22,810 nt of DNA from a virus. The stretch lies in IMG/VR virus record IMGVR_UViG_3300046533_000146, positions 1 through 22,810 of that record; one strand, 5' to 3'. This document shows, piece by piece, positions 588 through 21,372 of this stretch (position 1 is the stretch's first letter; every line of letters begins with the position of its first letter). The position numbers were made by a program, and so were the translations under genes. The notes beneath the pieces were generated by a model, which was given only the letters and a program-made list of their open reading frames with translations, ran no database searches and was not told where the DNA came from.

Positions 588-603
588 GGTGGTGGTCCCT
601 TCG

Positions 604-2070
604 TTAGAACACCGACCACGTAGCCGCGCGCGGTGTTGGCGCACGGACAACGTGTGTGGCCATCACCGCGGCAATCAACGCGTTGATGGGTCCACTTCCG
701 TGCCGTCGTTGAAACTTCCACGCTTGGCCGTGTGCGTTTGGTGAAGCGTTCGCAACATGCGCGGCGAGCATGGCGTCATCACGATGGACCAACCGGCGCG
801 ACACCGCGAGTTCATAGAAGCGATCGCACGCGCGGTTGACATCGGCCGGTTCCAACGCACGACACGCGAGGCCGGAAGCCGCGAGTTCTCCGAGCGTTGC
901 CGCTAACGGCCCTTGGCCGTCGTACACCACTTCCGCGCCAGGATGCCGGTCAAGGAGTCCCGGCACGAACGTGGACACGGCCACCGGCACCGGCCGTCCG
1001 GGTGTCGCGATGAAGTCACGCGCAAGTTCAACGTGTGTCGTTCCATCCGGCAACGCACCGGCAACGACGCACACCGCGTGTTCCAAGTTTGGTGACGCAT
1101 CCACGGCGAACACCACGCGTGCGTCACTCGGCAACATGGCGTTCGGTTGCGCCAACGATTCCCATAGGCCAGATGGCAACCACGCGCCTAGATGCGTCAC
1201 ACGGATGCACAACCGTTCCGTCAAGAACGCTTCCATGGTGTCTTGGCGCAACTCGGCTTGCACCACGTCATGCGTGATCGTGTGACCAAGCGCGGGATTC
1301 GCTTGCGCCCACGCGCACACATCGGAAGGATCGGCGTTCACATCGGCGGACCACTCAAAGAATCCGAACGATGGATCGTTCGTTGGATCGTTCGCCAACT
1401 CCCGGCCACGGTCCACCCATCCGTTCAACAACACGGATTGGTTGTCACCGGCGTTGGAGAACGACCACGCTTGACTATTCGGCTTCGCGCTCCGCGTCTT
1501 GTCGGCCGCGGTCCACACGGTGGTGTCGTGTTGCTCGCGTGCTTCGTCCAACAACACCAAGTCCGACGACAAGCCGCGCAAGCCTTGGTTACTGGCCATC
1601 ACCAACCACCGCGCACCGTTCAACAACGCGAGTTGTTCGGAACCGTTACTACGGCGCACCGTGCGGATGTGATCCGACAACGCGAACGTGGATTCGGCAA
1701 TGTTCACACCGGATGTCCACGCTTCCATTGCGATCTTCAAGTTTTGCGCTAACGACATCACCAACAACTCACGAAGCCGGTACATGCCGAACAACGCACG
1801 CAACGCCATAACCGTGGTCTTGCCGTTCTGCCGCGCCACCAACACAACGATGGTCCGGTAACGGAAGTTCGGCCGCGTGTGCTCGCGATCGTTCCACGGT
1901 TCCTTCAACTCCATGGCGGCTTGAAACAACCACGCTTGCCACGGCATCAACGGCCAACCGGCAATGTCGGCAAAGTCCGCTACTTCTTCACCAAGTGAGT
2001 AAGGGTAAATGCGCGGCGTAAACAAGCGTGGTGTTGCATAACCAACCGGCAACGGCACGGTTGCAACCAA
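604..2070 (-). CDS. terL: Terminase large subunit (TerL)
   Basis: 488 aa. TerL is the ATP-driven packaging motor and the nuclease that cuts concatemers. The N-terminal ATPase shows a Walker A (VARQNGKT, about 78-85), Walker B (DLVLLDEA, 170-177) and a coupling-type segment (SFSNAGDNQS, about 203-212). The C-terminal RNase H-like nuclease shows acidic residues in VFAVDASP (D324) and VYDGQG (D384). At the place where a third catalytic Asp is usually found near the C-terminus, the sequence reads GPINALIAAVMA, with Asn rather than Asp. The start is TTG at 2070, chosen because an AAGAAGGGACC site lies at the right distance and no ATG is available there. The stop TAA at 604 is followed by the stereotyped spacer and the portal start. 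The HNH nuclease gene lies just upstream. Confidence 0.95.
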   Translation of the reverse strand: MVATVPLPVGYATPRLFTPRIYPYSLGEEVADFADIAGWPLMPWQAWLFQAAMELKEPWNDREHTRPNFRYRTIVVLVARQNGKTTVMALRALFGMYRLRELLVMSLAQNLKIAMEAWTSGVNIAESTFALSDHIRTVRRSNGSEQLALLNGARWLVMASNQGLRGLSSDLVLLDEAREQHDTTVWTAADKTRSAKPNSQAWSFSNAGDNQSVLLNGWVDRGRELANDPTNDPSFGFFEWSADVNADPSDVCAWAQANPALGHTITHDVVQAELRQDTMEAFLTERLCIRVTHLGAWLPSGLWESLAQPNAMLPSDARVVFAVDASPNLEHAVCVVAGALPDGTTHVELARDFIATPGRPVPVAVSTFVPGLLDRHPGAEVVYDGQGPLAATLGELAASGLACRALEPADVNRACDRFYELAVSRRLVHRDDAMLAAHVANASPNAHGQAWKFQRRHGSGPINALIAAVMATHVVRAPTPRAATWSVF

Positions 2071-2074
2071 TGGT

Positions 2075-2083
2075 GGTCCCTTC
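2075..2083 (-). promoter_or_regulatory. GAAGGGACC ribosome-binding site selecting the TTG start of TerL
   Basis: On the minus strand this reads GAAGGGACC, followed by ACCA and then TTG. It is one of 12 leftward copies of the same motif placed before start codons. Here it decides for TTG at 2070. Other leftward copies on the plus-strand numbering are 594-602, 3058-3066, 5887-5895, 7565-7573, 9161-9169, 11199-11207 (AAAGGGACC), 14352-14360, 14957-14965, 19091-19099, 19887-19895 and 21299-21307. Confidence 0.8.
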
Positions 2084-2094
2084 TTGACTTGCTA

Positions 2095-2451
2095 TTACCA
2101 AATACGTGAAGGATTCGGCCGGTCGGCTGTACCACTCGGTCCAAGAGAGAGATTGGCAGGGACGGTGGTAGTCAACGGCAATCGGCCACCAAAAATGCGC
2201 CGGTTGTTTTCGCCAATGCGCGCGTCGTGATGCGCGTGTTTGCGCGTGTCGCGTTTTGCCAAGTTGCAGTCACGGCACAACACTTGTACGCCATCGACAA
2301 CCGACCGGTCACGTACGTGGTCAAGTTGCAAGTTCTTGGTACTGCCGCATCGTTCGCAACGCGGATGGATGGTGCGAGCATGGCGCGATGCGCGTTGCCA
2401 TTCGGCGTTATGCAAGTCCGGCCGTCGCGCGCGTGTGCTCACGCGTGCCAT
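2095..2451 (-). CDS. HNH endonuclease next to terminase
   Basis: 118 aa, basic. It shows the HNH/zinc architecture: CERCGSTKNLQLDHV (CxxC followed by the catalytic His in LDH) and LCRDCNLAKRD (second CxxC with the Asn). HNH proteins beside terL are known in cos phages, where they cooperate with the terminase in cleaving packaging substrates (HK97 gp74 type). A packaging role is therefore likely here, though a free-standing homing nuclease cannot be excluded. The ATG at 2451 lies inside the end of the upstream HTH gene (44-base overlap). A GTG nine bases downstream is an alternative start. No Shine-Dalgarno site is obvious, so translational coupling is likely. The C-terminal 35 residues are Pro/Gly-rich and carry no recognised motif. 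Confidence 0.88.
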   Translation of the reverse strand: MARVSTRARRPDLHNAEWQRASRHARTIHPRCERCGSTKNLQLDHVRDRSVVDGVQVLCRDCNLAKRDTRKHAHHDARIGENNRRIFGGRLPLTTTVPANLSLGPSGTADRPNPSRIW

Positions 2452-2863
2452 CGTCTAACCGAACGTGTGCGTTAGCAAGCGCAAGCGCGAGTGTTGGCAA
2501 GTGTGACGTTATGGTTAGCGCGGGAATGTTGTGTGGCTTGTCGTCACGTCCAACGTGTGCCGTCCACGTTCCGTCGTCATGTTCGGCAATGCACGCGGTG
2601 AAGTCATCCACGGTGGCGTGGTCGATCTTCCACGCTAGGTCTTGCAACACCGTGACGTGTTCCCGGTAGTTCAAGCGTGTGCGATATGCGAACACCACCG
2701 CGAGTGATTCGCCGTACGTGAACAATCCGAACTTGCCGAACTTCGTTGTTGCGCGCATCCGGTACAACTGTTTTCGTGAGAGGCCGGTGGCTTCTTGCAG
2801 GTCTTGGTATCGGTAACGACTTCCGTGGACCACGCGCCAGTCCAACACTTGTTGTGCGTTCAT
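2408..2863 (-). CDS. HTH DNA-binding protein; candidate TerS substitute or regulator
   Basis: 151 aa. Residues about 17-45 (YRYQDLQEATGLSRKQLYRM and following) look like a helix-turn-helix of the MerR/excisionase sort, with the basic recognition helix SRKQLYRMR. The C-terminal half contains a TACIAEHDDGTWTAHVGR segment followed by a helix TLALALANAHVRL. This vaguely resembles the HicB-like RNase H-type fold, but I cannot confirm it. The ATG at 2863 overlaps the stop of the preceding small gene as ATGA. The gene sits immediately before the HNH and TerL genes, where a small terminase is usually found, and no other TerS candidate exists. DNA binding is well supported by the motif; the packaging role is inferred from position only. 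Confidence 0.7.
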   Translation of the reverse strand: MNAQQVLDWRVVHGSRYRYQDLQEATGLSRKQLYRMRATTKFGKFGLFTYGESLAVVFAYRTRLNYREHVTVLQDLAWKIDHATVDDFTACIAEHDDGTWTAHVGRDDKPHNIPALTITSHLPTLALALANAHVRLDDGTREHTRATAGLA

Positions 2864-3051
2864 CGTGGTGCCACATGCGCGAGTGACACGCGGTCCGCGA
2901 GTTCTGACGCCACGGCCAAGTCATGGTGAAGCATGGCCTTTGGATCACCCGGCTTGACTTGTGACACGCGCTTGTGGTCCGCGATCCACTCCAACGCCAC
3001 ACGCACGAACACACGTTGTTCATCCGGTGTGAGTTCCACGTTGATGGTCAT
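2860..3051 (-). CDS. Small conserved-looking hypothetical protein
   Basis: 63 aa, starting MTINVELTPDEQRVFVRVAL. The ATG at 3051 was chosen because a GAAGGGACC site (3058-3066) lies just upstream. Extending the frame further upstream would run into the foreign cassette. The protein looks like one helical bundle with no Cys and no membrane segment. Its stop overlaps the HTH gene start as ATGA, so the two are co-translated. No function can be assigned. Confidence 0.75.
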   Translation of the reverse strand: MTINVELTPDEQRVFVRVALEWIADHKRVSQVKPGDPKAMLHHDLAVASELADRVSLAHVAPR

Positions 3052-3071
3052 GGCTTTGGTCCCTTCATTGT

Positions 3072-3116
3072 CTACCGATTCGGTTGGGAATCCTCGAATC
3101 TGTAATACGGGGTCAT
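3072..3116 (-). pseudogene. 14-codon stub at the cassette edge
   Basis: An ATG inside the left copy of the 27-bp direct repeat overlaps the stop of the 140-aa gene (TAGATGA) and runs only 14 codons (MTPYYRFEDSQPNR) to a TAG. It has the same upstream AGAAAGG Shine-Dalgarno as the 140-aa gene. It is most simply the decapitated start of a gene that followed in the donor and was cut at the recombination point, or a chance peptide. Confidence 0.3.
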
Positions 3117-3139
3117 CTATTCGCCTTTCTTGGGGGGAC
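3113..3139. repeat. 27-bp direct repeat, left copy
   Basis: Identical to 3536-3562. On the minus strand it encodes PPKKGE-stop at the end of the 140-aa gene, then provides ATGA of the next reading frame. The C-rich stretch and AAGAAAGG make it both a coding tail and a Shine-Dalgarno. Confidence 0.95.
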
Positions 3140-3539
3140 TCGACACCCACACTGGCTCTCCGTCGATCAGAGGATTGTCATGGGTGCCCGTGACGTGAAG
3201 GTCGCGAAGTTTCCGGTCCGCCATCCGCCAGTAGATCGTCGCCGCAACCGCGTCGAGCAACGCAGCAGCCGCAGCTTGAACCTCCGGGGCGCTTTCGCCG
3301 ATCTCGCAATCTTCGCCCGTCTCACCGTTCTCCGAAGCCCACTCGCTGATCCACTCCAAGAGTCGATCAACTTGTGGCAAGTGGTAGCGCGGGGTGTGCA
3401 CCGACCACTCCTCGATCGTGAACGCGAGCGGCTCGTCCTCGTCGGCGTCGGTCAGGTATTCCTCGACAATCTCCGAGGGGTCGAAGCGCATCCATTCGGC
3501 GTCGGGTAGTCCATAGAGATGGTCCCGGTTCTCGCTCAT
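3117..3539 (-). CDS. Hypothetical actinophage-type acidic protein, recently acquired
   Basis: 140 aa, strongly acidic, starting MSENRDHLYGLPDAEWMRFDP. I recognise the general LPDAEWMRFDPSE.. / IEEWSVH type from hypothetical proteins of actinobacteriophages, but its function is unknown. It has no membrane segment or catalytic motif. The ATG at 3539 is preceded by a canonical AAGAAAGG, unlike the GAAGGGACC sites used elsewhere. Codon choice differs sharply from the neighbours: GAG, CTC/CTG, GAC and GCT are common here, whereas the rest of the genome prefers GAA and TTG. The gene is bounded by two 27-bp direct repeats (3113-3139 and 3536-3562). Together these features indicate acquisition of a single-gene cassette from another phage. 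Confidence 0.85.
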   Translation of the reverse strand: MSENRDHLYGLPDAEWMRFDPSEIVEEYLTDADEDEPLAFTIEEWSVHTPRYHLPQVDRLLEWISEWASENGETGEDCEIGESAPEVQAAAAALLDAVAATIYWRMADRKLRDLHVTGTHDNPLIDGEPVWVSSPPKKGE

Positions 3540-3562
3540 CTATTCGCCTTTCTTGGGGGGAC
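3536..3562. repeat. 27-bp direct repeat, right copy
   Basis: Identical to 3113-3139 and exactly 423 bp (one gene length) away. It contains the start codon and Shine-Dalgarno of the 140-aa gene. The PPKKGE-stop tail is also present here, but the upstream frame is closed by a TGA at 3570-3572, so no gene ends in it. This looks like a recombination footprint. Confidence 0.95.
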
Positions 3563-3569
3563 GAGCTTT

Positions 3570-3701
3570 TCAACGTTGATGCATGGCCGTTGGTGTGCAA
3601 TCCTTCGGTGTCGGTTGGTGGTGGTTGTGCGTGGTCACTCCTTGGTCGGCTTCGCCACGTTGCAACACACACGTTGCGCCACCATCAACCGGCGTTGTCA
3701 T
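3570..3701 (-). CDS. Small hypothetical protein (43 aa)
   Basis: The ATG at 3701 overlaps the stop of the VRR-NUC gene as ATGA. The frame runs 43 codons to a TGA that lies just before the right copy of the 27-bp repeat. The protein is His/Thr/Pro-rich with no recognised motif. Its codon use matches the resident genome, unlike the cassette beyond it. It may be a complete small gene or a gene whose 3' end was replaced when the cassette arrived. The overlapping start is the main evidence. Confidence 0.5.
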   Translation of the reverse strand: MTTPVDGGATCVLQRGEADQGVTTHNHHQPTPKDCTPTAMHQR

Positions 3702-4057
3702 GTGGCTTGGTCTTCTTCGTGTTGCCAGTCGTACACACCACCGTGTTGTGGTGGTGGTTGCTTCAACCGCGCACGCACGGCCACTTCGTCACACGGACGC
3801 CACACGTACGTTTCAATGTGGCACCGTGCCAAGTCTCCCAACACGCGTTCTTGTACGTGTGTGACACGGCCGGTGTTCGACTTGAGTTCCACCAACATGA
3901 AGTCAGGAACGCGGATCAACGCCAAGTCCGGCCATCCGGGTGTTGTGCGCCGCGAGTCCGTGCATTGGAACACCGACCATCCGCACACATGCGCGAGTTG
4001 CACAACGTACCGGTGCCATTCGCGTTCGTTTTCGTACTGCCACCGCGTCCCGGTCAT
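3698..4057 (-). CDS. VRR-NUC family nuclease
   Basis: 119 aa. The VRR-NUC signature is complete: an N-terminal helix (EREWHRYVVQLAHVCGW), a PD-(D/E)XK core TTPGWPDLALIR (catalytic Asp) and MLVELKSNTGRVTHVQ (E-x-K followed by the conserved Gln). Family members are structure-specific or Holliday-junction-type nucleases, often next to phage helicases. The length is that of the usual stand-alone phage domain. The ATG at 4057 overlaps the preceding small gene as ATGA, and its stop overlaps the next start in the same way. A role in resolving replication or recombination intermediates with the upstream helicase is likely. Confidence 0.9.
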   Translation of the reverse strand: MTGTRWQYENEREWHRYVVQLAHVCGWSVFQCTDSRRTTPGWPDLALIRVPDFMLVELKSNTGRVTHVQERVLGDLARCHIETYVWRPCDEVAVRARLKQPPPQHGGVYDWQHEEDQAT

Positions 4058-4191
4058 GCCATCGGCCTCCGGAGTTGTTCACGGTGCGTGTGCAAGACGA
4101 CGGCTTCGCACGCTAAGACGACAAGGCGACGGATATATATATTCGGTCGGCATGTCGGCTTGTCGGTTGTCGTGACACGGTGCGTGGTCAT
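4054..4191 (-). CDS. Small basic hypothetical protein (45 aa) between helicase and VRR-NUC
   Basis: The frame is linked on both sides by ATGA overlaps: its ATG (4191) overlaps the helicase stop, and its TGA overlaps the VRR-NUC start. The 45-residue product is basic (six Arg in the last 30 residues) with two Cys. It spans an unusually AT-rich tract, which forces the rare codons AAT ATA TAT ATC. The region therefore may serve mainly as a DNA element (see the origin candidate), with the frame kept open for coupling. No homology is recognised. Confidence 0.55.
   Translation of the reverse strand: MTTHRVTTTDKPTCRPNIYIRRLVVLACEAVVLHTHREQLRRPMA
4098..4173. other. Candidate replication origin: AT tract flanked by GTCGG/CGAC half-sites
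   Basis: An 11-bp run of A/T (4133-4143) stands out in a GC-rich genome. To its right GTCGG/GTCGT occurs at 4146, 4154, 4162 and 4169 (steps 8, 8, 7). To its left the inverted form CGAC occurs at 4119 and 4127 (step 8), with a further one at 4098. The phased, inverted arrangement around an easily melted core, directly downstream of a RepA-like helicase gene, resembles iteron-type origins. It is inferred from pattern and context only. Confidence 0.4.
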
Positions 4192-5480: not shown

Positions 5481-5604
5481 CGTGCTTTCCTTGGTGTTGT
5501 CCTATGGGACACGTTCCGGTTGGCGTTGTGGTTGGCGCACACCGATTCGGCAACACGTTTGCTTGCGGTCCACGGTGGTGTCCGAGTGGCACCACCGTTC
5601 CGCG
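5481..5604. other. Short intergenic region upstream of the helicase gene
   Basis: 124 bp between the stop of the 91-aa gene and the helicase start. One minus-strand frame is open through it (ending TAG at 5502, with several Cys, Arg and Gln codons), but it has no credible start outside the preceding gene. It carries the AAGGAAAG site of the helicase. No clear promoter or hairpin was identified. Confidence 0.5.
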
Positions 5605-5880
5605 TTATGCGGCCGGTACTCCGTCGTCCACCGGCTTGCGGACGTACACCATTCCGTTGCGTGCGTGCGCTTCCAATCCGTACGTCTTCCGCAACGTCGT
5701 GGCGCGTGAGTACGCTTGATTGTCACTCCCGCATTGGAGTTCGTACCACTCGCCCGCGTTGGCGTTCACTTCCGCGATCAACGCGTCATACGGCGACGTA
5801 CGGCCAACGCCATTGCCACCGGCGCGCGCCGGTGCCGGTAGTGCTTCCGTCCGTGTGAACGTGAACGGTTCGCGTGCCAT
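5605..5880 (-). CDS. Small hypothetical early protein (91 aa)
   Basis: Starts MAREPFTFTRTEALPAPARA. The ATG at 5880 overlaps the RDF stop as TAATG and has GAAGGGACC (5887-5895) upstream, which rules out the longer upstream extension of this frame. The C-terminal half (WYELQCGSDNQAYSRATTLRKTYGLEAHARNGMVYVRK) looks like a compact alpha/beta domain of a kind often seen in actinophage early regions, without known function. It lies between the directionality factor and the helicase. Confidence 0.8.
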   Translation of the reverse strand: MAREPFTFTRTEALPAPARAGGNGVGRTSPYDALIAEVNANAGEWYELQCGSDNQAYSRATTLRKTYGLEAHARNGMVYVRKPVDDGVPAA

Positions 5881-7058
5881 TAGCTTGGTCCCTTCGTTGG
5901 TTCGATCACTTGGAATGTCCAGTGGTTGTCTTCGTCGGCAAACACGCGTGCTGTTCTTCCGGTGGATGTGGTGAACACCACGCCGCGTTGGTCTTCCAAC
6001 GGTTCCACTTGAAGTTGGCCGCGCCGTAGTTCGGTCAACCGTGTGGACACACCGGTGAGTTCTTCGTGTGTGAGTTCGGACCATGACGTGACCGGTTCGT
6101 CACGGCGCTTGGCCGTTTCGATCACCGCGAGGCCGTAGCGCAACACGTCCGCGTCCAAGTCCGGCCGTTCCTTCAACACGTCACGGACTTGCGCGAAGCA
6201 ACCGCGCCGGAACTTTGCATCCGGGTCTTCCGGTGTCGTCGGCCGTTCATCGGTCACCACCGGCGCGAACACCAACAACGATGGTGGCGTGTCATCGTCA
6301 TGTTCTCCGAACGACGCGGCCGGTGGTGGTGTCGGTTCGCCGCGCGGGATTCGTGGCGTGGCCGTTGGCAACGACGCGACGGATAGCGCGGCCATACCGG
6401 GTGTCTCCCGTTCTACGGCCTTCTCCCGGCCTCCGAGCGTGCGCGTGGATGAACCGACCGGCGCTAGTTGTACGTCCAACACCGGCACAACGAACCGGCG
6501 TGGTGGATCACCCGGCCGTTTCACCACGCGGCGTTCTATGGCCAGAGTGGCCGCGGCCAACGAACCGGTGCGTTCCGCGAGTTGCAACGCCAATCCGACC
6601 GACGATTGAAGTTCACCGGCCGCGTACCACGAAGACGTTTCCACACGCCACACACCGAACGTGGCGAACGCGGGAAGGATGACGGACAACCGCGTTATCG
6701 GTTCACACACGCGGTTACCTTCGGCAAGACAGGGACACGCGGTATCCGTGATGGACTCGCGCACACCATCGCAACGGCGCGTGCAACCACCCGCGGACCA
6801 CGTTTCCCACCATTGCGAAAACGACACATCTTCCGGTGGCACCAACACGTCCAACCGGTCCACTTCCGTGATGACTTCCCATTGGCTGTTCCACTCGCGC
6901 ACGGTGCCACCGAACAACTCCGCGGCCGTGTCCAACAAGTCGCGGCGCACGGATGTGAAACGGAACGTGGACAACGCGCGCGGGTGGTCACCGGCTTGTT
7001 CGCCAAGTCGAATCCGTCCTATTTCGTGAACACGGCGTTGGATATCAAGGATTGGCAC
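5880..7058 (-). CDS. Recombination directionality factor, phiC31 gp3-like
   Basis: 392 aa. The N-terminal about 190 residues match the RDF-like (phiC31 gp3) family as I know it. It has RRVHEIGRIRLG near the start, a QWEVITEVDRLDVLVPP stretch (59-75), a SAGGCTRRCDGV motif and a cysteine cluster (C92, C96, C108, C110, C118), then TRLSVILP. Such proteins bind a large serine integrase and switch it from integration to excision. A linker and a C-terminal extension (about 270-392) with a helical segment follow; phiC31 gp3 is about 244 aa, so this is a long version. The start is GTG at 7058, overlapping the previous stop as TAGTG. Its partner is the serine integrase at 9495-11048. The 3' end contains the ribosome-binding site of the next gene. 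Confidence 0.85.
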   Translation of the reverse strand: MPILDIQRRVHEIGRIRLGEQAGDHPRALSTFRFTSVRRDLLDTAAELFGGTVREWNSQWEVITEVDRLDVLVPPEDVSFSQWWETWSAGGCTRRCDGVRESITDTACPCLAEGNRVCEPITRLSVILPAFATFGVWRVETSSWYAAGELQSSVGLALQLAERTGSLAAATLAIERRVVKRPGDPPRRFVVPVLDVQLAPVGSSTRTLGGREKAVERETPGMAALSVASLPTATPRIPRGEPTPPPAASFGEHDDDTPPSLLVFAPVVTDERPTTPEDPDAKFRRGCFAQVRDVLKERPDLDADVLRYGLAVIETAKRRDEPVTSWSELTHEELTGVSTRLTELRRGQLQVEPLEDQRGVVFTTSTGRTARVFADEDNHWTFQVIEPTKGPS

Positions 7059-7339: not shown

Positions 7340-7380
7340 GACACATCCGCTTCCACCACGTCCGCGTCCACTACGTCCGC
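7336..7380. repeat. Three degenerate 15-bp tandem units
   Basis: Units at 7336-7350, 7351-7365 and 7366-7380 share the plus-strand pattern (t/g)(t/c)cca-c-a-c-tccgc with a few changes. They encode the ADVV(D/E) repeat at the C-terminus of the 74-aa protein. Expansion or contraction would stay in frame. Confidence 0.7.
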
Positions 7381-7560: not shown

Positions 7561-8422
7561 CGTTGGTCCCTTCTAGGTATGCGCCGAACACGGAACGCGG
7601 CGCGGTCACTTCCACGAAGTGTTGTGCGCCGCGGATGTAGAGAAAAGCGTTGTACGCGTCATCGTCCACACGTACCGGATACATGCGCCAACCGGTTGGT
7701 GTGAGTTGCAGAATGGCGCAACCGTCAACTTCCGGCATCGGCAACGCGTTGGCGCGATCGTTTGGTGAGATGTAGTACCGGCGTGGCGAACCACGTTCAC
7801 CATCCAACACGTATGGCCGGAACGCACACACGGACGGTGCGCGCCGGTACGCCGCGAGTTGCAACGGCCATTCCGCATATGGCGCACGAACGTGGCCGGA
7901 CTTCGTGCGATCGTTGCGCGTGGTCTTGTAGTCCACCAACCACGATGTGCCATCCGGAAGTTCCACGACGGCATCCAACGTTCCGGCGTACAAGTACGCG
8001 TCGTCAAACACGGTGGCTTCCACCATCGTGTGGCGCGGTGACATCTTCTCCATCCACCGTTCCCATGAGTGGACGTATGGCACGGCCTCCGCGTCGATGT
8101 CATCCAACGCCACCACACCGTCCAACACGTAACGCTCCAACACGCGGTGAACTTCGGAACCGAGTTCGGCGTCAGACAGATGGCCACGCTTCCGCCATCC
8201 GTCTTGCTTCGTCAGGATCGACTTGGCTTCGTCTTCGGTCCACGTCTTCAACGCGTCGGCGCGGTCATACGCGGCCAACGCCACTTGTTGCATCTTCCAC
8301 AACTCCAACGGATACCGGTACAGCGCGCGCAAGATGGACGTGACCGACCAACACTCCAACGCGTCCGGTGGAATCAACGCCGCGTCAACCGGTTGTGGTT
8401 GTGGCCACAACACCGCGGTCAT
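7547..8422 (-). CDS. Cas4/RecB-like PD-(D/E)XK nuclease
   Basis: 291 aa. It shows the RecB-family exonuclease signature in order: an N-terminal H in GSEVHRVLE (about 88-96), E135, YAGTLDAVVEL (D150), WLVDYKTT (D164-x-K166) and a QLAAYR motif (188-193). Cas4/RecB-like phage nucleases process DNA ends during recombination-dependent replication. I see no four-cysteine Fe-S cluster, so it is closer to the RecB/lambda-exonuclease-like form than to true Cas4. The ATG at 8422 overlaps the preceding 30-codon gene as ATGA. The 3' end reads through the next gene's ribosome-binding site. Confidence 0.88.
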   Translation of the reverse strand: MTAVLWPQPQPVDAALIPPDALECWSVTSILRALYRYPLELWKMQQVALAAYDRADALKTWTEDEAKSILTKQDGWRKRGHLSDAELGSEVHRVLERYVLDGVVALDDIDAEAVPYVHSWERWMEKMSPRHTMVEATVFDDAYLYAGTLDAVVELPDGTSWLVDYKTTRNDRTKSGHVRAPYAEWPLQLAAYRRAPSVCAFRPYVLDGERGSPRRYYISPNDRANALPMPEVDGCAILQLTPTGWRMYPVRVDDDAYNAFLYIRGAQHFVEVTAPRSVFGAYLEGTNDATT

Positions 8423-9150: not shown

Positions 9151-9280
9151 GGTTGTTGTTGGTCCCTTCCCGCGAATCCGCGGCGCGTTGCTCACGGTTC
9201 CATCGGTGGAAACTTGCGCGCATAACTTCGGCCACGCGTGCAAGTTGTTCCGGCGTTGCGTGTTGTGAACGCTTCACCAT
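9083..9280 (-). CDS. Possible small protein (65 aa) overlapping the next gene
   Basis: Frame from ATG 9280 (or GTG 9286). The first 40 residues look like a protein (HATPEQLARVAEVMRASFHRW, an amphipathic helix) with codon use like the genome. The last 23 codons overlap the 100-aa gene by 68 bases, and the tail there is low-quality (Arg/Asn-rich). The next gene's ribosome-binding site lies inside this frame. It could be real and coupled, or only the leader of the operon. Confidence 0.4.
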   Translation of the reverse strand: MVKRSQHATPEQLARVAEVMRASFHRWNREQRAADSREGTNNNHAPPNADDGGRARRRDPSSESC

Positions 9281-9288
9281 GGCCACCG

Positions 9289-9317: not shown

Positions 9318-9408
9318 GAAGGAATCCGCGCCACGCGTCCACAACTTTGGTGGTGCCGGTGGACAACATCACACCGACCGGTGGAAAACCATGTGGACGG
9401 AACGCGGA

Positions 9409-11194: not shown

Positions 11195-11339
11195 GGTTGG
11201 TCCCTTTGGTTAGGTGGTGGTTCATGGTGTCACGTTCGGCCGGGTGGGTACAGTGGACATCCGCCAAGGCCGTTGTTCATGCTACACCACGTCCGCGACC
11301 GGCCTAGACACTGGGAAGTGGCTTGCGGCCTTGCCGCAT

Positions 11340-11392: not shown

Positions 11393-11401
11393 GAAGGGAC
11401 C
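11393..11401 (+). promoter_or_regulatory. GAAGGGACC ribosome-binding site of the repressor candidate
   Basis: The same motif as in the leftward genes, here on the plus strand, four bases before the ATG at 11406. It fixes the start and excludes the longer frame. Confidence 0.75.
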
Positions 11402-11405: not shown

Positions 11406-12335
11406 ATGCCGTACACCATTGACGTAACCGAAGACGGCCATTTGGCATGGCCACCACACCGTGTGGAATATCCACACCAACGTTTGATGAAGACGACGGA
11501 ACCACATTGGCGCAAGACTCTTGTGGTACTTGCCAAAGGTCCGGTGATCGACAAGTCCGGACTTGCCACGGCGAAACTTGCCAAGAAGATCAAGTGGCCA
11601 CACGGCCAACCGGCAATGTCAATGATGTTGGCAACGATGGAAGACACCGGACTTGTCTCCCGTGAGATCAACGGCAAGCGCACGATGTCGATTGCCATTG
11701 CCGTTGACGTTGAAGCGTTACCACCGGAGTGGTTCCCATCCTCCAACGGCCACCATGCGCCGGACGGAACCGACCAAGCCACGGAAACGGACGGCACACC
11801 GGCCACGGTGGCTTCTAACGCACCGGAGGCCGAAGCCACCACGGACGCGCCGGAACGGATGCCGGATGCGCCACGCGGCCTTGTGGCCGTTCCGGAAATA
11901 GACCCGTTGGAATGGCACACCGCGCAAACGGCAAACGATGGCGTGGACTATTCGTTGTTGGCCGCGGCCTTGTTGGAACGTGTTGTGGAACTTGCCACCG
12001 GTGCCGCCACCGCGGACCCGGATTCGTACGACCGTGGCGTGGTGTTGTCGGTCCAGTTGACGCACGCCAACAACCAAGCCGAGAAGTTGCGAAAACGGAT
12101 CACGGTGTTGGAGAAGGAACTTGCCGTGTCCGCGGGCTTGGTGAAGTCGTACCGTGTCCAGTTTTCCGAAGAACAACGCCAACACCGTGGCACGGAAGCC
12201 AACTTGCGTTCCGTGCTCCAAACCGTTCGGAAACTTGACGCCAACCAAATACTTGACGAAGACAAGCGCACGGCGTTGGCCAAGATGTTGCGTGAGATTC
12301 CTTTGAGTCCAGACACGCAACGCGCCGCGGATTAG
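11406..12335 (+). CDS. Winged-helix / coiled-coil DNA-binding protein, repressor candidate
   Basis: 309 aa. The ATG at 11406 is placed by GAAGGGACC at 11393-11401; the frame is open further upstream but without a site. Residues about 38-90 (LVVLAKGPVIDKSGLATAKLAKKIKWPH ... MLATMEDTGLVSREINGKRTMSIAI) look like a winged helix: helix-turn-helix, then a wing with GLVSREINGKRT. A long acidic Ala/Pro/Thr linker (about 115-175) follows, then a helical C-terminus with a coiled coil (NNQAEKLRKRITVLEKELAVS and on to LRSVLQTVRKL). The gene is transcribed away from the integrase operon and heads a three-gene rightward unit. A maintenance repressor is the likeliest role, but a nucleoid- or partition-type binding protein is possible. 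Confidence 0.75.
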   Translation: MPYTIDVTEDGHLAWPPHRVEYPHQRLMKTTEPHWRKTLVVLAKGPVIDKSGLATAKLAKKIKWPHGQPAMSMMLATMEDTGLVSREINGKRTMSIAIAVDVEALPPEWFPSSNGHHAPDGTDQATETDGTPATVASNAPEAEATTDAPERMPDAPRGLVAVPEIDPLEWHTAQTANDGVDYSLLAAALLERVVELATGAATADPDSYDRGVVLSVQLTHANNQAEKLRKRITVLEKELAVSAGLVKSYRVQFSEEQRQHRGTEANLRSVLQTVRKLDANQILDEDKRTALAKMLREIPLSPDTQRAAD

Positions 12336-12340
12336 TTCCG

Positions 12341-12839: not shown

Positions 12840-13002
12840 CCGGTGGTCCGGCCTCACGTACCGTTTCCTCTTGGCGGGTGTAGTTAGTGGGACCACCGAC
12901 CGGTACGCGAGAAGGGACCAACCAACCGCGCTAACCGGCCGGTGGCCGCCACTTGGATTCTATGCCGTTGGTCTTTCTGTGCAAGACCCTAAGTTGTGAC
13001 TT
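12840..13002. other. Convergent intergenic region with an orphan ribosome-binding motif
   Basis: Rightward and leftward units meet here, so termination is expected, but no hairpin with a T-run is seen. Complementary stretches are CGGTGGTCC (12841-12849) with GGACCACCG (12890-12898), and GTACCG (12858-12863) with CGGTAC (12901-12906), an interlocked order. A GAAGGGACCA copy on the plus strand at 12911-12920 has no gene behind it: only 14- and 16-codon frames follow. Confidence 0.5.
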
Positions 13003-13374: not shown

Positions 13375-13387
13375 ATACCAACCGGGA

Positions 13388-14197
13388 CTAGTTGACGTGT
13401 CCAGTTGGTGCGCCAAGGAACAACGCGGAACCGAACGCGAACACGCCACCATCCTTGGCGAGCAACACGTAACCGTTGCCGTCTTCGGCCGATGACAACG
13501 CGCACACTGGCGCGTTCAACTTCTTGCCGCCCATGCCACCGCGCATTGGTGCCGCGCCGTATGCGAACACGCCACCGTCCGATGCGACCAACCAATAACC
13601 GTCGTTGTTCGGCCTCACGTCCATGCCGACGATTGGCGCGGCCAACTTCAAGTCGTTGGCACCACCGCGGTATTGCGCGTCGCCGTATGCGAACACGGCA
13701 CCAACCGAGTCAACCACGTAGTAACCGTTGCCGCTTGGCGTCATCACGATGTCCATTGCGCCACCATTCCCATCTTCGTCGGTTGTCGGTGTGGTCGGTT
13801 GGCTTCCGGCTTGGCACGCGGCCACCACTTTGTTCCACACGTTCATGGTGTAGTTGCCGGGACACGCGGTGGCGCTTCCGGGTGAGTCTTGGTGTGCGCG
13901 CACCGTTGGATTGCCGACGACATAGCCGCGCGTGCGTGCATCGGCCACCGCGCCACGGATTAGTTCTATGTCCGCGTCCGTCACCGGATAACCGGTGTGT
14001 CTGTCTCCGGACAAACACACGTCTACCGATTCGCCGTTGAAGTTCAACGTGGCGAACGAATCCCATACGGAACGGAAGTGTTCCCACCGCGTCTTGCCGA
14101 TTCCGTATGTGTAACCACCGTGTGAGTAACCACCGGAGTTGTCTGTCGGCGCGCCTCCGCCTTGGTGGTGGATGGTCACCAACGTGACCGGCGACAC
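13388..14197 (-). CDS. Endolysin: amidase with C-terminal YWLVASDGGVFAYG repeats
   Basis: 269 aa. The N-terminal about 130 residues are a PGRP/Amidase_2-type N-acetylmuramoyl-L-alanine amidase: TIHHQGGG (Zn ligand H10 or H11), VRAHQDSPGSATACPG (H102 and C112) and GIGKTRWEHFRSVW. After a short Thr/Asp/Gly linker come three imperfect repeats of about 37 residues (GNGYYVVDSVGAVFAYGDAQ, DGYWLVASDGGVFAYGAAP, GNGYVLLAKDGGVFAFGSA). They probably make a beta-rich wall-binding domain; such repeats are frequent in secreted actinobacterial proteins, notably Acidimicrobiia. The GTG start at 14197 overlaps the preceding stop as TAGTG. No signal peptide is present, so export depends on a holin. Confidence 0.88.
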   Translation of the reverse strand: MSPVTLVTIHHQGGGAPTDNSGGYSHGGYTYGIGKTRWEHFRSVWDSFATLNFNGESVDVCLSGDRHTGYPVTDADIELIRGAVADARTRGYVVGNPTVRAHQDSPGSATACPGNYTMNVWNKVVAACQAGSQPTTPTTDEDGNGGAMDIVMTPSGNGYYVVDSVGAVFAYGDAQYRGGANDLKLAAPIVGMDVRPNNDGYWLVASDGGVFAYGAAPMRGGMGGKKLNAPVCALSSAEDGNGYVLLAKDGGVFAFGSALFLGAPTGHVN

Positions 14198-14346: not shown

Positions 14347-14361
14347 CGTTTGGTCCCTTCG

Positions 14362-14952: not shown

Positions 14953-14966
14953 CGTTGGTCCCTTCG

Positions 14967-16214: not shown

Positions 16215-18150
16215 GCCAAGAACTTCCGTTCTTGCGTTCGTACGCACGGATACTTGCAACAAGCGAACGGCCAACGTCGGCCGGATTCGCACCGGGCGCA
16301 ACGTTGACGTTGATGGTGTAGTGGTTGACCGTTGCACCACCCGGACCACCGCGGCCAACGTCTTGCGCGCGTGTGATGTATTCGCCACCGTGAACCGTTG
16401 CCAACACCGGCGCGCCGATCGGACCCGGAACGTAACCACCTTCCGCGTATCCGTATGCCGCGCGCACAACTCCTTGTGGATCAACCGTGACTTGACCGCT
16501 TGGTGTTTGTTCAATGACTTTCAACGTGATGTTGGCGTGGCGTGGTGTGGCCGCGCGGTCAAGATCACGGATCAATCCGTCCAAGTAGGAACGGAATGGA
16601 TTGCCAGGCTGGATGGTGCCGCGCAAGTTCTCCAACGCCGTGCGTTGTGCGTCTGCGCTTCCCTTGGCGTCCAACGTCTTGCCATGCAACGCGGCTTCTT
16701 GCGTTGCCGCGTTTGCGGCCGATGACGCCACGCCATCAATGGAAGACTTGACATCGTTGGACGCGCGTTCCCAATCGCGGTTGGCTTGCGCGTTCTTGCC
16801 GTGTTGCTTTACGGCCTCCGCGAGTTTCGGTAAGTACGCGTCGATGGAGTCCGACACACCGAGCATGGAGTTTGACAAGCCGATGTCGGCATCGCGCGTT
16901 CCTAGTATGGCGTCCGTTTCCGTCTTCTGCGCTTTGGCGCGATCTTCCGCGGCCTTCTTGGCCTCTTTGGTTCCGGCCGTTTGTGCGGCCGTTGCGGCCG
17001 TTGCCGTCGTTGCGGCCGTGGCGAGTCCATCGTTGATTACCTTCGCGGCCTTGTTGGCTTCCGTGTATTCCTTTTGGTGTTGCTTCGCGGCAACGCTTGT
17101 CTTGTCACCTTTGGCCAAGTCGTCCGCGTAGGCGCGCGTCGCGACTTGCAATCGCTTCATCGTTTCGGCCGCGTCGTCACCGGCGTGGTGGACATCTCCC
17201 AACGCTTTGCGTGCAAACTCCGCGAGTCCGAGCGACAACACGTCTTCAATGGCGCGGCCAAGATTGACGTGTATCTTCTTCGACAAGTCGTCAACGCCGT
17301 TCAATGCCAACGCAACGCCACCGGCAAAGTCTGACAACACCGGAAGAAGTTGGTTGCCAATCGCGACTTTCAAGTCGTTGGTTTCGGCCTTCATCACCGC
17401 GAGTTTTCCGGCGTACGTTGTCGCGTACTCCGAAGCCGCGCCACCAAACTGCGCGTTCAACTTTTGTACGGCCTCCGCCGCGGTGATGGTCTTACCGTTG
17501 GCATCCTTTTGTGCAATGCCGAGTTTGGCCAGTCCCTTCAATCTTCCGGCCTCTACGGCCACCAACGTGGACGTTGCTTCGTCCAACGTTTGGTTGCGCG
17601 CGCGTGCAACGTCCGCGGCCACGCCTAACAACACGGTGGCTTTGCCAACGTCGTGCGTTACCGGCACCAACTTGGCCATTGCCGATTCGGTATCGGTTGA
17701 CGAAAAGCCGAGTTGCACCAACTTGTCGTCATTGTTCGTGATCGCGTCGGCTTCATCCTTCATGGACTGGCCAACGTTTTCTACGACAACGGCCAACCGT
17801 TCATGCGCTTTGTTGAAGTTCTCCGCCGCGTCGATGGACTCGCGCGCAAACTCTGCGGCCGCGGCACCGGCCACCGCGAGTCCACCGGCAACGGCACTAC
17901 CGGTTCCGATTCCCGCGGCCTCCATTCGTGAGAAGTCACCGGTTACCGACTTGGCCGCGCCACCAAACGGCAAGTGGAACGAACCAAGAACTTTGCCGAG
18001 TTGACCGAACACACCGGCCATCTTGTTGCCGTGTCCGGCAATGTCTTTTCCGGCCGTGCCAACTGCGCTTGCGGCCTTCTTCGATGAAGACACCAAGTTG
18101 GACGCGTCACCAAGCCATTTGACGGTAAGCGAACGCACATCACCGGCCAT
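16207..18150 (-). CDS. Tape measure protein
   Basis: 647 aa, mostly helical and Ala/Lys-rich, with a hydrophobic patch (GSAVAGGLAVAGAAAAEFA, about 65-85). A long Ala/Thr-rich helical stretch (ATAATTATAATAAQTAGTKEAKKAAEDRAKAQKT) follows in the middle, and the C-terminus is characteristic (GYAEGGYVPGPIGAPVLATVHGGEYI, VNHYTINVNV). It sets tail length; at about 0.15 nm per residue the tail would be roughly 95-100 nm. The ATG at 18150 overlaps the preceding stop as TAATG. No lytic transglycosylase or peptidase motif was seen. Confidence 0.93.
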   Translation of the reverse strand: MAGDVRSLTVKWLGDASNLVSSSKKAASAVGTAGKDIAGHGNKMAGVFGQLGKVLGSFHLPFGGAAKSVTGDFSRMEAAGIGTGSAVAGGLAVAGAAAAEFARESIDAAENFNKAHERLAVVVENVGQSMKDEADAITNNDDKLVQLGFSSTDTESAMAKLVPVTHDVGKATVLLGVAADVARARNQTLDEATSTLVAVEAGRLKGLAKLGIAQKDANGKTITAAEAVQKLNAQFGGAASEYATTYAGKLAVMKAETNDLKVAIGNQLLPVLSDFAGGVALALNGVDDLSKKIHVNLGRAIEDVLSLGLAEFARKALGDVHHAGDDAAETMKRLQVATRAYADDLAKGDKTSVAAKQHQKEYTEANKAAKVINDGLATAATTATAATAAQTAGTKEAKKAAEDRAKAQKTETDAILGTRDADIGLSNSMLGVSDSIDAYLPKLAEAVKQHGKNAQANRDWERASNDVKSSIDGVASSAANAATQEAALHGKTLDAKGSADAQRTALENLRGTIQPGNPFRSYLDGLIRDLDRAATPRHANITLKVIEQTPSGQVTVDPQGVVRAAYGYAEGGYVPGPIGAPVLATVHGGEYITRAQDVGRGGPGGATVNHYTINVNVAPGANPADVGRSLVASIRAYERKNGSSWRA

Positions 18151-18611
18151 TACCGAACACCGGCCCACTTCGCGCCGAGTCCATCAAGCGCGGCTAGGTA
18201 AACCATCGTGTCGTGGTGTCCACGTTCACGAAGTGTTGGGAACAAGAAATAGCCTTGTGTTCCACGGTGTGGAAGAAACTGTTGTGTGCGTGTTCGACCG
18301 CGGCCACCAAACTCCGCGCCGAACAAGAACGCACCGGCCGAGTGGCGATGCGTTCCAACACGCTTTGATCCGCCGACAATCAACGACGGCACGCGGTCCG
18401 ACTTGACGCGCAACGTTTCCGATGCCAACGCCGCGGCACCGGCAATCGACGCGCCGCGCGCCTTCGCGGCCGTCACGGTTGTGGTTGCCACGGACTTGGA
18501 AGCCTTGCGAAGTTCGGCGTTGGCCTCGCGGCCGTAACTACCGAACGCGCGCAACATCGGTTGCAAGCCTTCAAGTTCCATGGCAACCGCGTTCGTCTTG
18601 ATGGTTGCCAT
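18150..18611 (-). CDS. HK97 gp10-like tail/head-tail protein
   Basis: 153 aa. The N-terminal helix and the central RVPSLIVGGSKRVGTHRHSAGAFLFGAEFGG with THRHS, then FLPHRGTQGYFLFPTLRE, resemble gp10-like/tail-completion proteins of actinophages. This type of protein normally lies between the connector and the major tail protein; here it follows the major tail protein and precedes the tape measure, where the two tail-assembly chaperones would be expected. The ATG at 18611 has a GGAG site 9 bases upstream inside the previous gene's end. Confidence 0.7.
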   Translation of the reverse strand: MATIKTNAVAMELEGLQPMLRAFGSYGREANAELRKASKSVATTTVTAAKARGASIAGAAALASETLRVKSDRVPSLIVGGSKRVGTHRHSAGAFLFGAEFGGRGRTRTQQFLPHRGTQGYFLFPTLRERGHHDTMVYLAALDGLGAKWAGVR

Positions 18612-18617
18612 GGTGTG

Positions 18618-19085
18618 TTACTCCGCGCTAGCCGAAGCCTTCGCGGTCTTGGCTTCCGTTGCCATCAACGCACCCGGCACGATGTCGTATGCCGGTTGTC
18701 CCTTCAACGGCAATGAGGCTTGGAACACGGCGACTTCGGATTGCGTACCACCGACTTGGCCGGGAACACACACCACGGTTCCGCTCCATGTTGGATTGTC
18801 CGCGCCAACTGGCGCGTCTTTACACACCAACGTGAACGGTTGTTCCGTGCGTGCGTTGTCGAATAGGTACATGAGCAACGCGGTGGCGTCATACGATTGG
18901 AAGCCTTCAAGGTCCAACGTCCACTTGATGTCACCCGGAAGTTCGGCCGGACCACACAACGAACCGGCATCCTTCATTGTGACGGCCGGTGTGAGTTCGG
19001 CCTTCGACAACTCACAAGTGACATCGGTTCCGGGTGTTCCGATGGTTACGGTTGGATTGATGAACACGAACGCGGGATTGGTCAT
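18618..19085 (-). CDS. Major tail protein
   Basis: 155 aa, starting MTNPAFVFINPTVTIGTPGTD. It has two strands, VTCELSKAELTPAVTMKDAGSLCG and DIKWTLDLEGFQ.., then ATALLMYLFDNARTEQPFTLVC and a Gly-rich end. This is the beta-sandwich tail-tube protein type of actinophages. The ATG at 19085 follows AGAAGGGACC; an upstream extension was rejected. The C-terminus is Ala/Lys/Ser-rich. Confidence 0.85.
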   Translation of the reverse strand: MTNPAFVFINPTVTIGTPGTDVTCELSKAELTPAVTMKDAGSLCGPAELPGDIKWTLDLEGFQSYDATALLMYLFDNARTEQPFTLVCKDAPVGADNPTWSGTVVCVPGQVGGTQSEVAVFQASLPLKGQPAYDIVPGALMATEAKTAKASASAE

Positions 19086-19098
19086 TGGTTGGTCCCTT

Positions 19099-19524
19099 CT
19101 AGAAGACGATAAGTGTTTCGCAATCGGCGCACGGAAACTCGCGGTTCCCGTGTGAGAACGTGGTGGCGTTGGTGCGCGTTGGACGGCACAACGTGACCGT
19201 GCCGCCAAGCGTGGTGTCGTTGAACAACGCTTGTGCGTACGCCATTTGGAGTTGGTCTAGGTCTTGTTGTGCCGGTCGGTTCGCAATGACAGGAACGACA
19301 AGCCGAACGCTTACCAACGCGGTTGGTAGTCCGTTGTAACTGTCGTCTTCCCATTCGACGTTGAAGACACCGACCAACGCACATGGTGGTGTGAACGTGT
19401 CCGACAACCATTCGTTCACGCGTAACGCTTGGCCTTGGTATTGCGCCGACGACAACGCGGCCGTGATGGCCTCGCGTGTGGCCGGGAGATCAACGGTGCA
19501 ACACCGTGGCGTTGTCACCGTCAT
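19099..19524 (-). CDS. Tail terminator candidate
   Basis: 141 aa from ATG 19524, overlapping the preceding stop as ATGA. The fold pattern ATREAITAALSSAQYQGQALRVNEW ... VGVFNVEWEDDSYNGLPTALVSVRLVVPVI ... DLDQLQMAY matches tail-terminator/tail-completion proteins, which cap the tail tube and join it to the head. A Cys-rich end (TLCRPTRTN, PCADCETL) is unusual. The position between connector and major tail protein supports the call. Confidence 0.7.
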   Translation of the reverse strand: MTVTTPRCCTVDLPATREAITAALSSAQYQGQALRVNEWLSDTFTPPCALVGVFNVEWEDDSYNGLPTALVSVRLVVPVIANRPAQQDLDQLQMAYAQALFNDTTLGGTVTLCRPTRTNATTFSHGNREFPCADCETLIVF

Positions 19525-19880
19525 GCCAAGACCACCGTTCGCCACGGCGCTTCTAGTGCGTCAATGTCACGGTCATACGGTGGTATCCGCGCAACGCCAA
19601 GTTCACCAAGACCAACAAGACCTTCCGGTGATGCGCGCCGCGCGTACAACCGTGACGCACGCATCAACGCGGCTTGGTACACATCGTCCGGCACCGTGAC
19701 CGGTGGTACTTCTCCCGGCATTAGTGGATCAACGGTCAAGAAGATGGACGGTTGCAACCGTGCGCGTTGCATGGCTTCCACCGCGTCCACGACTTGTTCC
19801 AACAACGCATCGTCCAACGTGTCCGTTTGTGCCAATCGCAAATACGCTTTGACACTTGCAACGTCTAGGTAAGTGGCCAT
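19521..19880 (-). CDS. Head-tail connector (gp6-like)
   Basis: 119 aa from ATG 19880, with GGAAGGGACC upstream. MATYLDVASVKAYLRLAQTDTLDDALLEQVVDAVEAMQRARL is the helical start of HK97 gp6/connector proteins, and YQAALMRASRLYARRASPEGLVGLGELGVARI is the diagnostic second half (A-L-R-A-RLY-RR-SP-G). It forms the ring below the portal. The longer upstream frame would run through the hairpin region and was rejected. Confidence 0.9.
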   Translation of the reverse strand: MATYLDVASVKAYLRLAQTDTLDDALLEQVVDAVEAMQRARLQPSIFLTVDPLMPGEVPPVTVPDDVYQAALMRASRLYARRASPEGLVGLGELGVARIPPYDRDIDALEAPWRTVVLA

Positions 19881-19898
19881 GGTGTTGGTCCCTTCCGT

Positions 19899-19943
19899 GA
19901 TGGAACGGTGGCCGTGGCGTGCAAGTCCGACCACCGTTCCATC
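19899..19943 (-). terminator. 13-bp perfect stem-loop between capsid and connector genes
   Basis: Arms GATGGAACGGTGG and CCACCGTTCCATC on the minus strand, perfect over 13 bp, with a 19-base loop. It starts 13 bases after the small membrane gene's stop and ends just before the GAAGGGACC of the connector. There is no U-run, so attenuation, RNA stabilisation or processing is as likely as termination. It would uncouple abundant capsid mRNA from downstream genes. Confidence 0.7.
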
Positions 19944-19956
19944 GTCGGCATCTCCC

Positions 19957-20064
19957 CTAACGAAGTCCACGCAAGAACGTGAGAAGTTGAACGGCCGCCA
20001 TCACCAACACCGCGGCAACGATCAACCACGCTTCCGTGGACGTGAAGTCCGCGGCAACCATCAC
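19957..20064 (-). CDS. 35-aa single-TM protein after the major capsid gene
   Basis: GTG 20064 (overlapping the capsid stop as GTGA) or ATG 20061. The product is MMVAADFTSTEAWLIVAAVLVMAAVQLLTFLRGLR: a short polar N-terminus, one hydrophobic helix of about 20 residues and a basic end, so N-out/C-in by the positive-inside rule. It lies between the capsid and connector genes. Coupling and the TM pattern make it likely real. Its job is unknown; a membrane peptide in a head operon is unusual. Confidence 0.6.
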   Translation of the reverse strand: MMVAADFTSTEAWLIVAAVLVMAAVQLLTFLRGLR

Positions 20065-21293
20065 GGACCTACAACGCCGGTAACTTTGCAAAACGCTTCC
20101 GGTGCCGCGTTGAACCACGCGACATATCCGTAGTAAGCGATGACGAATCCGAGGATGGTCGGTTCCGTGACGGACAGTTGGCCACCGACTTGTTCGTAAA
20201 ACTCCGCCAATGCCGACACGCCAACGATCATGGTCTTTGCCGCCAACGCACCGTCGGCAATCAACCGAAGACCGAACACGCTTCCGGACATTGAACCGAA
20301 CGACAAGTTGCCCATTGCGTTACCGGGATTGATGGCAACAAACAACGGACGGCCGGTGGAATCGACCGCGGACACCAAGAAGGCCCAAACATCCGGCGAA
20401 CACCAAATGGTGTCCGGCATCATGTTGGTTGCCGCGAAGATGGTTGCGGACGCGGTGGCGATTGCCGCCAACGCGCCTTTGCCGTCCATGCTCGCGGCCG
20501 CGGTTGTCGCTGTAACACTTGCCGCGAAGTAGGTTGCGAATCCGGCGTTGGTTGACTTGGCGTATGCACCGGCCAAGTCGTCAATCGCAATCTGCAAGAT
20601 TGCCGGTTCCGTCCAATCACGGTTCTGAAATGAGATGTCCAGCGTTCCACCGTACGTCTTCTTCGGAACATCGGTTCCGGAGATGACCAACTTTTGTGAC
20701 GCAACTTCCGTCTTCTCTGTCGCTTGCGCGGCAACCAACGTGTGTTGCGTTGTCTTCGGTCGCGAGAACGACGCACCGGCACCCGGCATCGGCCGTTGCA
20801 TCACGGACGACACCGTTGGACGCAAGTTCGTGATGAACGTTGTCACCGGTCCAAGGATCGGCTTCGGAACAACACCAACGTTGTCGGCAAGAAGTTGGTT
20901 CGCAACCGCGCGCTCCAACCGTTGTCCGGCCTCCGGAACTTTGGAACGCAACACCAAGTCCGACACGTAGTGACCGGCATCCGGCCACAAGTCCGTGAGT
21001 TCTTCGCGCCGCGGCATGACTCCTTGTCCTTGCATGGTGTGTGGCGATTGACGCACCAACGCACCGTTGATGCGTTCGGACATTGCGTCACCGGTGGCGC
21101 GTTGTTCGGCCAACGTTGCCCACTCGGAACGTTCACGGTCCACGCGCTCCAAGCGCGACCGTGCTTCCGTCAACATCGTGTTCTCCGCGTCCGTGAGTTC
21201 GCGGTCTTCTTGTCCGGCGCGTTCCAACACACCATCAATGGTGGTGAGAGTTTCGTTGCGCTCCCGGTCCAAACGATCAATGAACGTACGCAT
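20061..21293 (-). CDS. Major capsid protein, HK97 fold
   Basis: 410 aa. The first about 105 residues are a charged coiled coil (RLDRERNETLTTIDGVLERAGQEDRELTDAENTMLTEARSRLERVDRERSE), the scaffolding delta domain removed by the protease. The shell domain follows with PILGPVTTFITNLRPTVSSVMQRPMP, AQATEKTEVASQKLVISGTDVPKKTYGGTLDISFQNRDWTEPAILQIAIDDLAGAYAKSTN (E-loop/spine helix) and a beta-rich end GFVIAYYGYVAWFNAAPEAFCKVTG. This is the usual organisation and length. The ATG at 21293 follows AGAAGGGACC. It sits behind the protease gene, as in HK97. Confidence 0.94.
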   Translation of the reverse strand: MRTFIDRLDRERNETLTTIDGVLERAGQEDRELTDAENTMLTEARSRLERVDRERSEWATLAEQRATGDAMSERINGALVRQSPHTMQGQGVMPRREELTDLWPDAGHYVSDLVLRSKVPEAGQRLERAVANQLLADNVGVVPKPILGPVTTFITNLRPTVSSVMQRPMPGAGASFSRPKTTQHTLVAAQATEKTEVASQKLVISGTDVPKKTYGGTLDISFQNRDWTEPAILQIAIDDLAGAYAKSTNAGFATYFAASVTATTAAASMDGKGALAAIATASATIFAATNMMPDTIWCSPDVWAFLVSAVDSTGRPLFVAINPGNAMGNLSFGSMSGSVFGLRLIADGALAAKTMIVGVSALAEFYEQVGGQLSVTEPTILGFVIAYYGYVAWFNAAPEAFCKVTGVVGP

Positions 21294-21372
21294 GATGTGG
21301 TCCCTTCTTCACGGCGATTCTTGATGCCGGTGGGACCGTGCGCGTTGCGCTTGGTGAAACCGTCTGACGCGG
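21294..21372. other. 79-bp gap between protease and capsid genes
   Basis: It contains the AGAAGGGACC site of the capsid gene and no open frame of note. No hairpin as strong as the one behind the capsid gene is seen. Confidence 0.6.

Follow-up and report, generated by a model that had tools for sequence, protein, structure and literature searches.

What is an almost unchanging nonamer doing ahead of 13 gene starts of a small phage, conserved beyond anything that pairing with the ribosome would ask of it, and why does one further copy stand apart in an intergenic gap? The question is raised by the virus record IMGVR_UViG_3300046533_000146, analysed here over its whole length of 22,810 nucleotides (the window), in which the nonamer takes the form GAAGGGACC or AAAGGGACC and is referred to below as the start tag. 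Our findings suggest, with a probability that we place at about 0.75, that a phage RNA displaying the complement of the tag in a hairpin loop addresses the tagged gene starts, most likely repressing their translation.

The start tag, its complement in a hairpin loop, and the genome that carries them

All fourteen copies described in the initial annotation, twelve leftward and one rightward at gene starts plus an orphan at 12911, were recovered as exact copies in the whole window, compared with a mean of 0.2 and a maximum of 3 in order-1 Markov shuffles of the sequence. On the minus strand, GAAGGGACC precedes the major capsid gene (410 amino acids, start at 21293; tag at 21299..21307), a 119-amino acid head-tail adaptor-like gene (19887..19895), a 155-amino acid tail-region gene (19091..19099), a 196-amino acid gene lying at 14952-14362 (14957..14965), a 49-amino acid gene (14352..14360), genes of 100 (9161..9169), 74 (7565..7573), 91 (5887..5895) and 63 amino acids (3058..3066), the terminase large subunit gene (488 amino acids, TTG start at 2070; 2075..2083) and the portal gene (438 amino acids, across the circular junction; 594..602). 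The variant AAAGGGACC occurs at a single site on the same strand, before another 49-amino acid gene (11199..11207). The plus-strand copies are the tag of a 309-amino acid rightward gene at 11406-12335 (11393..11401) and the orphan. As judged by translation, each non-orphan tag is followed by an ATG or TTG that opens a credible gene; the distance from the ACC of the tag to the start codon is 4-10 nt at 13/13 sites and 4-6 nt at 12 of them, and the spacers are A/C-rich. Additionally, CGAAGGGACC adjoins TAA at three junctions, which agrees with the three repeated blocks recorded initially.

The sequence AAGGGACC is invariant at all 13 sites, and the bases that follow it are A (12/13), A (9/13) and C (8/13). 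The GAAGGGA part of the tag can pair with the 16S rRNA tail with one G-U pair, whereas ACC has no 16S pairing, just as the initial annotation had stated; the selection for more than a Shine-Dalgarno sequence that it had deduced is borne out both by the invariance of this core and by the complementarity of ACC to the hairpin loop described below. An asymmetric tag placed 4-10 nt before every one of 13 starts, with ACC unchanged past the 16S pairing, has the features of the class known as Start-Associated Sequences (SAS). A text search of the literature for GAAGGGACC returned nothing relevant among the papers listed.

The orphan at 12911 is not a spare start site, it is the complement of a hairpin loop. 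In the intergenic gap 12840-13002, the minus strand forms a 26-pair hairpin at 12887..12952, with the arms GUGGCGGCCACCGGCCGGUUAGCGCG and CGCGUACCGGUCGGUGGUCCCAC, which we propose to be an anti-motif RNA. Its apical loop GUUGGUUGGUCCCUUCU (12910..12926, minus strand) includes the orphan copy (12911-12919, plus strand) and is complementary to AGAAGGGACCAACCAAC. The loop pairs with every base of GAAGGGACC, ACC included, and at many sites also with the AAC that follows. The fold energy is -46.7 kcal/mol (z -5.0) for the minus-strand hairpin and -34.6 kcal/mol (z -2.1) for the plus strand, the former being stronger because the three G-U pairs of the hairpin work only on the minus strand. As expected of a phage antisense small RNA acting at ribosome-binding sites, the loop is predicted to be single-stranded and is complementary to the ribosome-binding sites of its targets.

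A screen was made of hairpins of at least 12 pairs in 16 phage genomes or half-genomes, in which a loop was scored by the number of gene starts to which one or more of its 9-mers are complementary. Sequences antisense to the starts were excluded; a screen that kept them was confounded by them and has been superseded. In the window, the anti-motif hairpin ranked first of 917 scored, with 12 starts, the next having 7. The mean duplex energy over the 13 window starts was -24.2 kcal/mol with the phage's own loop and -9.8 kcal/mol with the 16S tail, and shuffled loops reached a mean of -10.8 kcal/mol, none of the 200 attaining the value of the real loop.

The two ends of the window, bases 1-127 and 22684-22810, form an identical 127-bp direct terminal repeat and are joined by a bridging contig (L009); the window is therefore a complete circularly permuted phage genome of 22,683 bp, in a record of 22,810 bases. 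It belongs to a small actinobacterial phage encoding a serine integrase, a Gp3-like recombination-directionality-like protein, an amidase endolysin and a terminase with 34-37% identity to terminases of Gordonia and Microbacterium phages. Alignment of the terminase gave matches in actinobacterial prophages, from which no host was assigned, and a search for the host by an endolysin scan of genomes gave no match. No near relatives at the DNA level were found in INPHARED, and the relatives in IMG/VR are exclusively 100%-identical contigs. Repeats of the GYWLVASDGGVFAYG kind, which are common in Acidimicrobiia, occur in the endolysin gene (13391-14197, minus strand) and are a possible hint at the host.

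Recurrence and covariation in other phages

The tag was also found in other phages. Three related phages of 61-62 kb, designated G004, G020 and G002, in which no similarity to the window was detected at the DNA level, carry 10, 14 and 6-8 tagged starts, respectively, each with one reverse copy. In all three, the top hairpin of the screen was the anti-motif hairpin (10 starts in G004, 14 in G020 and 8 in G002, the next having 7 in each case). The 16-nt loop sequence GTTGGTTGGTCCCTTC was then used for a prospective search across all of IMG/VR. Of the four contigs returned, two were G004 and G020 and one matched by chance; the fourth, G037, is a newly recognised phage of 45.9 kb, in which all 14 forward copies of AAGGGACC precede start codons and the one reverse copy lies inside a hairpin loop. 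Since G037 is related to G020 (79% identity), it represents an extra member of this clade and not a new one. The 16 nt of the window loop are identical in the unrelated G004, G020 and G037, an extent that exceeds the need of the start tags. Three candidate carriers were rejected: L151 and L317 have the loop sequence with zero start tags, a chance occurrence, and G014 has few tag copies, mostly away from starts.

Comparison within this clade revealed that loop and starts covary. The base 3' of CUUC in the loop is G in G004, G020 and G002 (CCCUUCG) and A in G037 (CCCUUCA); at the position just ahead of GAAGGGACC, the former have C at 22/30 starts, and G037 has C at 0/14 and T at 7/14 (Fisher test on C and T, p = 1.4e-5, a guide only, as sites are treated as independent). 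At nine orthologous starts of G020 and G037, paired by protein match, C has changed to T in 5/5 cases, compared with 1/26 flanking C (p = 3.5e-5, to be read with the same caution). A single change in the loop is matched in this way at several genes. Compensatory change is thus present in the G020/G037 clade, the relatives of the window being all identical to it. Moreover, the fold of G020 favours the anti-motif strand, and terminator-like hairpins lie downstream on that strand in G020, G002 and G037. The covariation constitutes strong comparative evidence for pairing in trans, and, together with the strand evidence, makes trans base pairing the simplest reading of these sequences.

The Cluster K1 mycobacteriophages carry another tag, GGGATAGGAGCCC, and another loop, GGCCUCCUAUCCC, which form 12 of 13 pairs. 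The single reverse SAS copy of these phages is a hairpin loop, K1 starts pair preferentially with the K1 loop according to duplex energies, and the anti-motif hairpin was first in the screen in Adephagia and Angelica and joint first in Anaya. Homologues of the Adephagia hairpin region occur in 145 phage records; in the K1 phages among the homologues read, the loop CCTCCTATCCC is retained and the stem is altered on both sides (GTTGACC/GGTCGAC, GTTGATC/GGTCAAC and GTCAACC/GGTTGGC). The folds of Adephagia and Angelica favour the anti-motif strand, and published RNA sequencing of Adephagia shows late rightward transcription to start within the hairpin gap, on the anti-motif strand (PMC11373665).

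Elsewhere in Cluster K, the hypothetical genes Pixie gp97, Curiosium gp103 (L307) and Guanica15 gp100 (L306) overlap the conserved structured RNA region, and may have been wrongly annotated on top of an RNA gene. In Aminay (L164), a copy of the SAS core, CCCCGCAGATAGGAGCTGCGGGG, lies at 9155 (about 37154 of the record) in a perfect hairpin, and the SAS at 37184 follows approximately 30 nt downstream. A further tag/loop pair is tentatively recognised in G013 and G001, which are one phage (99.99% identical; 48-kb contig, ~49% GC; L298-L300, 20741-39773): CGAAAGGACA precedes over 20 gene starts, and at about 28258 a hairpin displays CCCCUUUCGUCC in an open loop, the pairing of -12.5 kcal/mol being little stronger than that with 16S rRNA and not group-specific.

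Alternative explanations of the tag

Several observations weigh against an RNA that addresses the tags. A consensus scan at the window RNA detected no canonical promoter or terminator, and a weak promoter-like TTGCAC-16-TAGAAT, tentatively recognised by eye at 12957..12984 on the minus strand, with its end some 4 nt upstream of the hairpin, was below threshold. The base preceding the core matches the loop at only 5/13 window sites. In G002, a short stem buries the anti-motif when the fold is at minimum energy, and neither in G002 nor in Anaya is the RNA strand favoured by folding. Furthermore, among the SAS-bearing phages of other K groups, no matching loop was found in Pixie, TM4, ZoeJ, Kratio and Aminay, nor in Ekdilam and Unicorn, in which SAS are present and the loops are degenerate; SAS conservation in such Cluster K phages therefore cannot rest on such an RNA alone. 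Finally, GGGAAAGGACCCC was confirmed at about 10 gene starts of the Microbacterium phage AnnaSerena, and the reverse copy in a hairpin loop that had been predicted beforehand was not found there, so that this prediction failed. From these phages it follows that the tag can exist without the RNA, which either was lost or, in some lineages, joined a tag that has another role as well.

If the tag were no more than an extended Shine-Dalgarno sequence, with a host ribosome that favours GAAGGGACC and an A/C-rich unstructured spacer and with a hairpin present by coincidence, then the pairing of GAAGGGA with 16S rRNA, the correct spacing and the composition of the spacers would all be accounted for. 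This explanation is nevertheless very unlikely, as it leaves the loop and its covariation unexplained, along with the invariance of the unpaired ACC. In addition, GAAGGGACC-N3-9-ATG occurs 0-9 times per Acidimicrobiia genome of 1-5 Mb, versus 13 starts in 22.7 kb here; as Acidimicrobiia may not be the host's group, this speaks only roughly against a ribosome-binding site in common use in the host. The short asymmetric repeats at gene junctions would also suit a recombination or stoperator-like DNA site, that is, a boundary repeat driving gene shuffling or binding a repressor on DNA, but the near-fixed spacing of 4-6 nt, an orientation that follows the gene on both strands and tag changes that track the loop in G020/G037 leave this hardly credible. 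The nuclease site and the trace of modular shuffling at gene boundaries that had been envisaged at the outset are likewise unsupported, loop complementarity and covariation pointing to an RNA partner.

A phage or host RNA-binding protein could read the tag, as has been suggested for SAS, with a motif-sense hairpin as its decoy in the manner of CsrB-type sponges. Inverted repeats fold on either strand, a sense decoy would likewise give matched changes, so that covariation alone is compatible with it, and SAS are kept in Cluster K phages that have no matching loop; Adephagia, moreover, encodes gp39, reported as Hfq-like by DALI (Z 8.8), and the DUF3310 protein gp51 (PMC11373665). It is the strand that makes a decoy improbable: in the window the anti-motif strand folds better by 12 kcal/mol, the folds of G020, Adephagia and Angelica, though not those of Anaya and G002, favour it as well, and both the late transcription start of K1 and the downstream terminator-like hairpins mentioned above are on that same strand. 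The initial annotation had suggested an RNA-binding protein target; the trans-acting partner implied by that suggestion is retained, while the partner directly evidenced is an RNA, and an extra protein partner is possible. Adephagia gene 39 (L153:31344-31742) has an SAS at its own start, and its Hfq-like product might act as chaperone to the RNA proposed here.

An RNA that pairs with the tags might also activate translation, by bringing a partner or opening a leader structure, or might mimic the 16S tail. The 3' end of 16S rRNA is GCGGUUGGAUCACCUCCUUUCU, and the window loop with its 5' flank, GCGGUUGGUUGGUCCCUUCU (12910-12931, minus strand), resembles it (GCGGUUGG...CUUCU); all loops share a C/U-rich core. 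Yet the pairing would cover the ribosome-binding site, and the precedents for loops pairing with such sites, 6C/B11 and c4 of P1, are repressors, which leads us to consider activation or mimicry unlikely.

Proposed mechanism and known systems

According to the reading that we favour, a small structured phage RNA, on the minus strand from about 12952 to 12887, would display GUUGGUUGGUCCCUUCU in a hairpin loop able to pair with the GAAGGGACC(A) tag ahead of 13 phage genes. The tag would have a dual role, GAAGGGA serving the ribosome as Shine-Dalgarno sequence and the full GAAGGGACC serving the loop as RNA address, which would explain why conservation extends past the 16S pairing. A pairing of 9-12 nt across the ribosome-binding site would block initiation, and repression is therefore favoured as the sign of the effect, albeit by a modest preference. 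The outcome could be a regulon-wide translational repression, perhaps switching gene classes during the life cycle. Comparison establishes the tag, the hairpin, their complementarity, the strand preference of the fold and, in another clade that has the same tag, the covariation of loop and starts; transcription of the RNA in the window phage and the sign and timing of its effect are what we infer. If this is right, one phage RNA may hold roughly a third of the genome under translational control, a scale without counterpart in the phage small RNA literature examined, and tag and loop together would provide a ready orthogonal translation switch. More speculatively, and at somewhat less than even odds, phage 'address' systems may form a class of general occurrence, in which much of the phage proteome is governed in trans, via start tags, by one RNA whose loop is like a re-coded 16S tail, with independent origins in unrelated actinophages and different tag/loop pairs.

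Mycobacteriophage SAS have been on record since 2011. Those of Cluster K are asymmetric conserved tags at the ribosome-binding sites of 11-19 genes, conserved past the 16S pairing (Pope et al. 2011, PMC3203893), approximately half of them with upstream 17-bp inverted repeats (ESAS). They resemble the window tag in that the reverse copy of several K1 phages is a hairpin loop, and differ from it in sequence (GGGATAGGAGCCC there, GAAGGGACC here) and in being restricted to non-structural genes, whereas the window also tags portal, capsid and terminase. Their function is given as unknown in the literature of 2011, 2024 and 2025 and their role was termed ill-defined in the Adephagia RNA sequencing study (PMC11373665); a loop RNA would offer them a specific and testable role. 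Microbacterium phages of Cluster EF also carry SAS (PMC7302621), the start tag GGGAAAGGACCCC being the likeness; no hairpin loop holding a reverse copy was found there.

Small RNAs with comparable loops are known from both hosts and phages. The mycobacterial 6C/B11 RNA pairs through C-rich hairpin loops with the ribosome-binding sites of several mRNAs and represses them (PMC10470900), but it is host-encoded, has two C-rich loops and uses no dedicated tag; a scan against Rfam assigned no family, and neither the window nor L149-L152 matched 6C at E values up to 1. The c4 antisense RNA of phages P1 and P7 blocks the ribosome-binding site of a phage mRNA by means of complementary stretches in its loops (PMC12197685), and differs in having one target, whereas in the window one proposed RNA would face 13 tagged genes.

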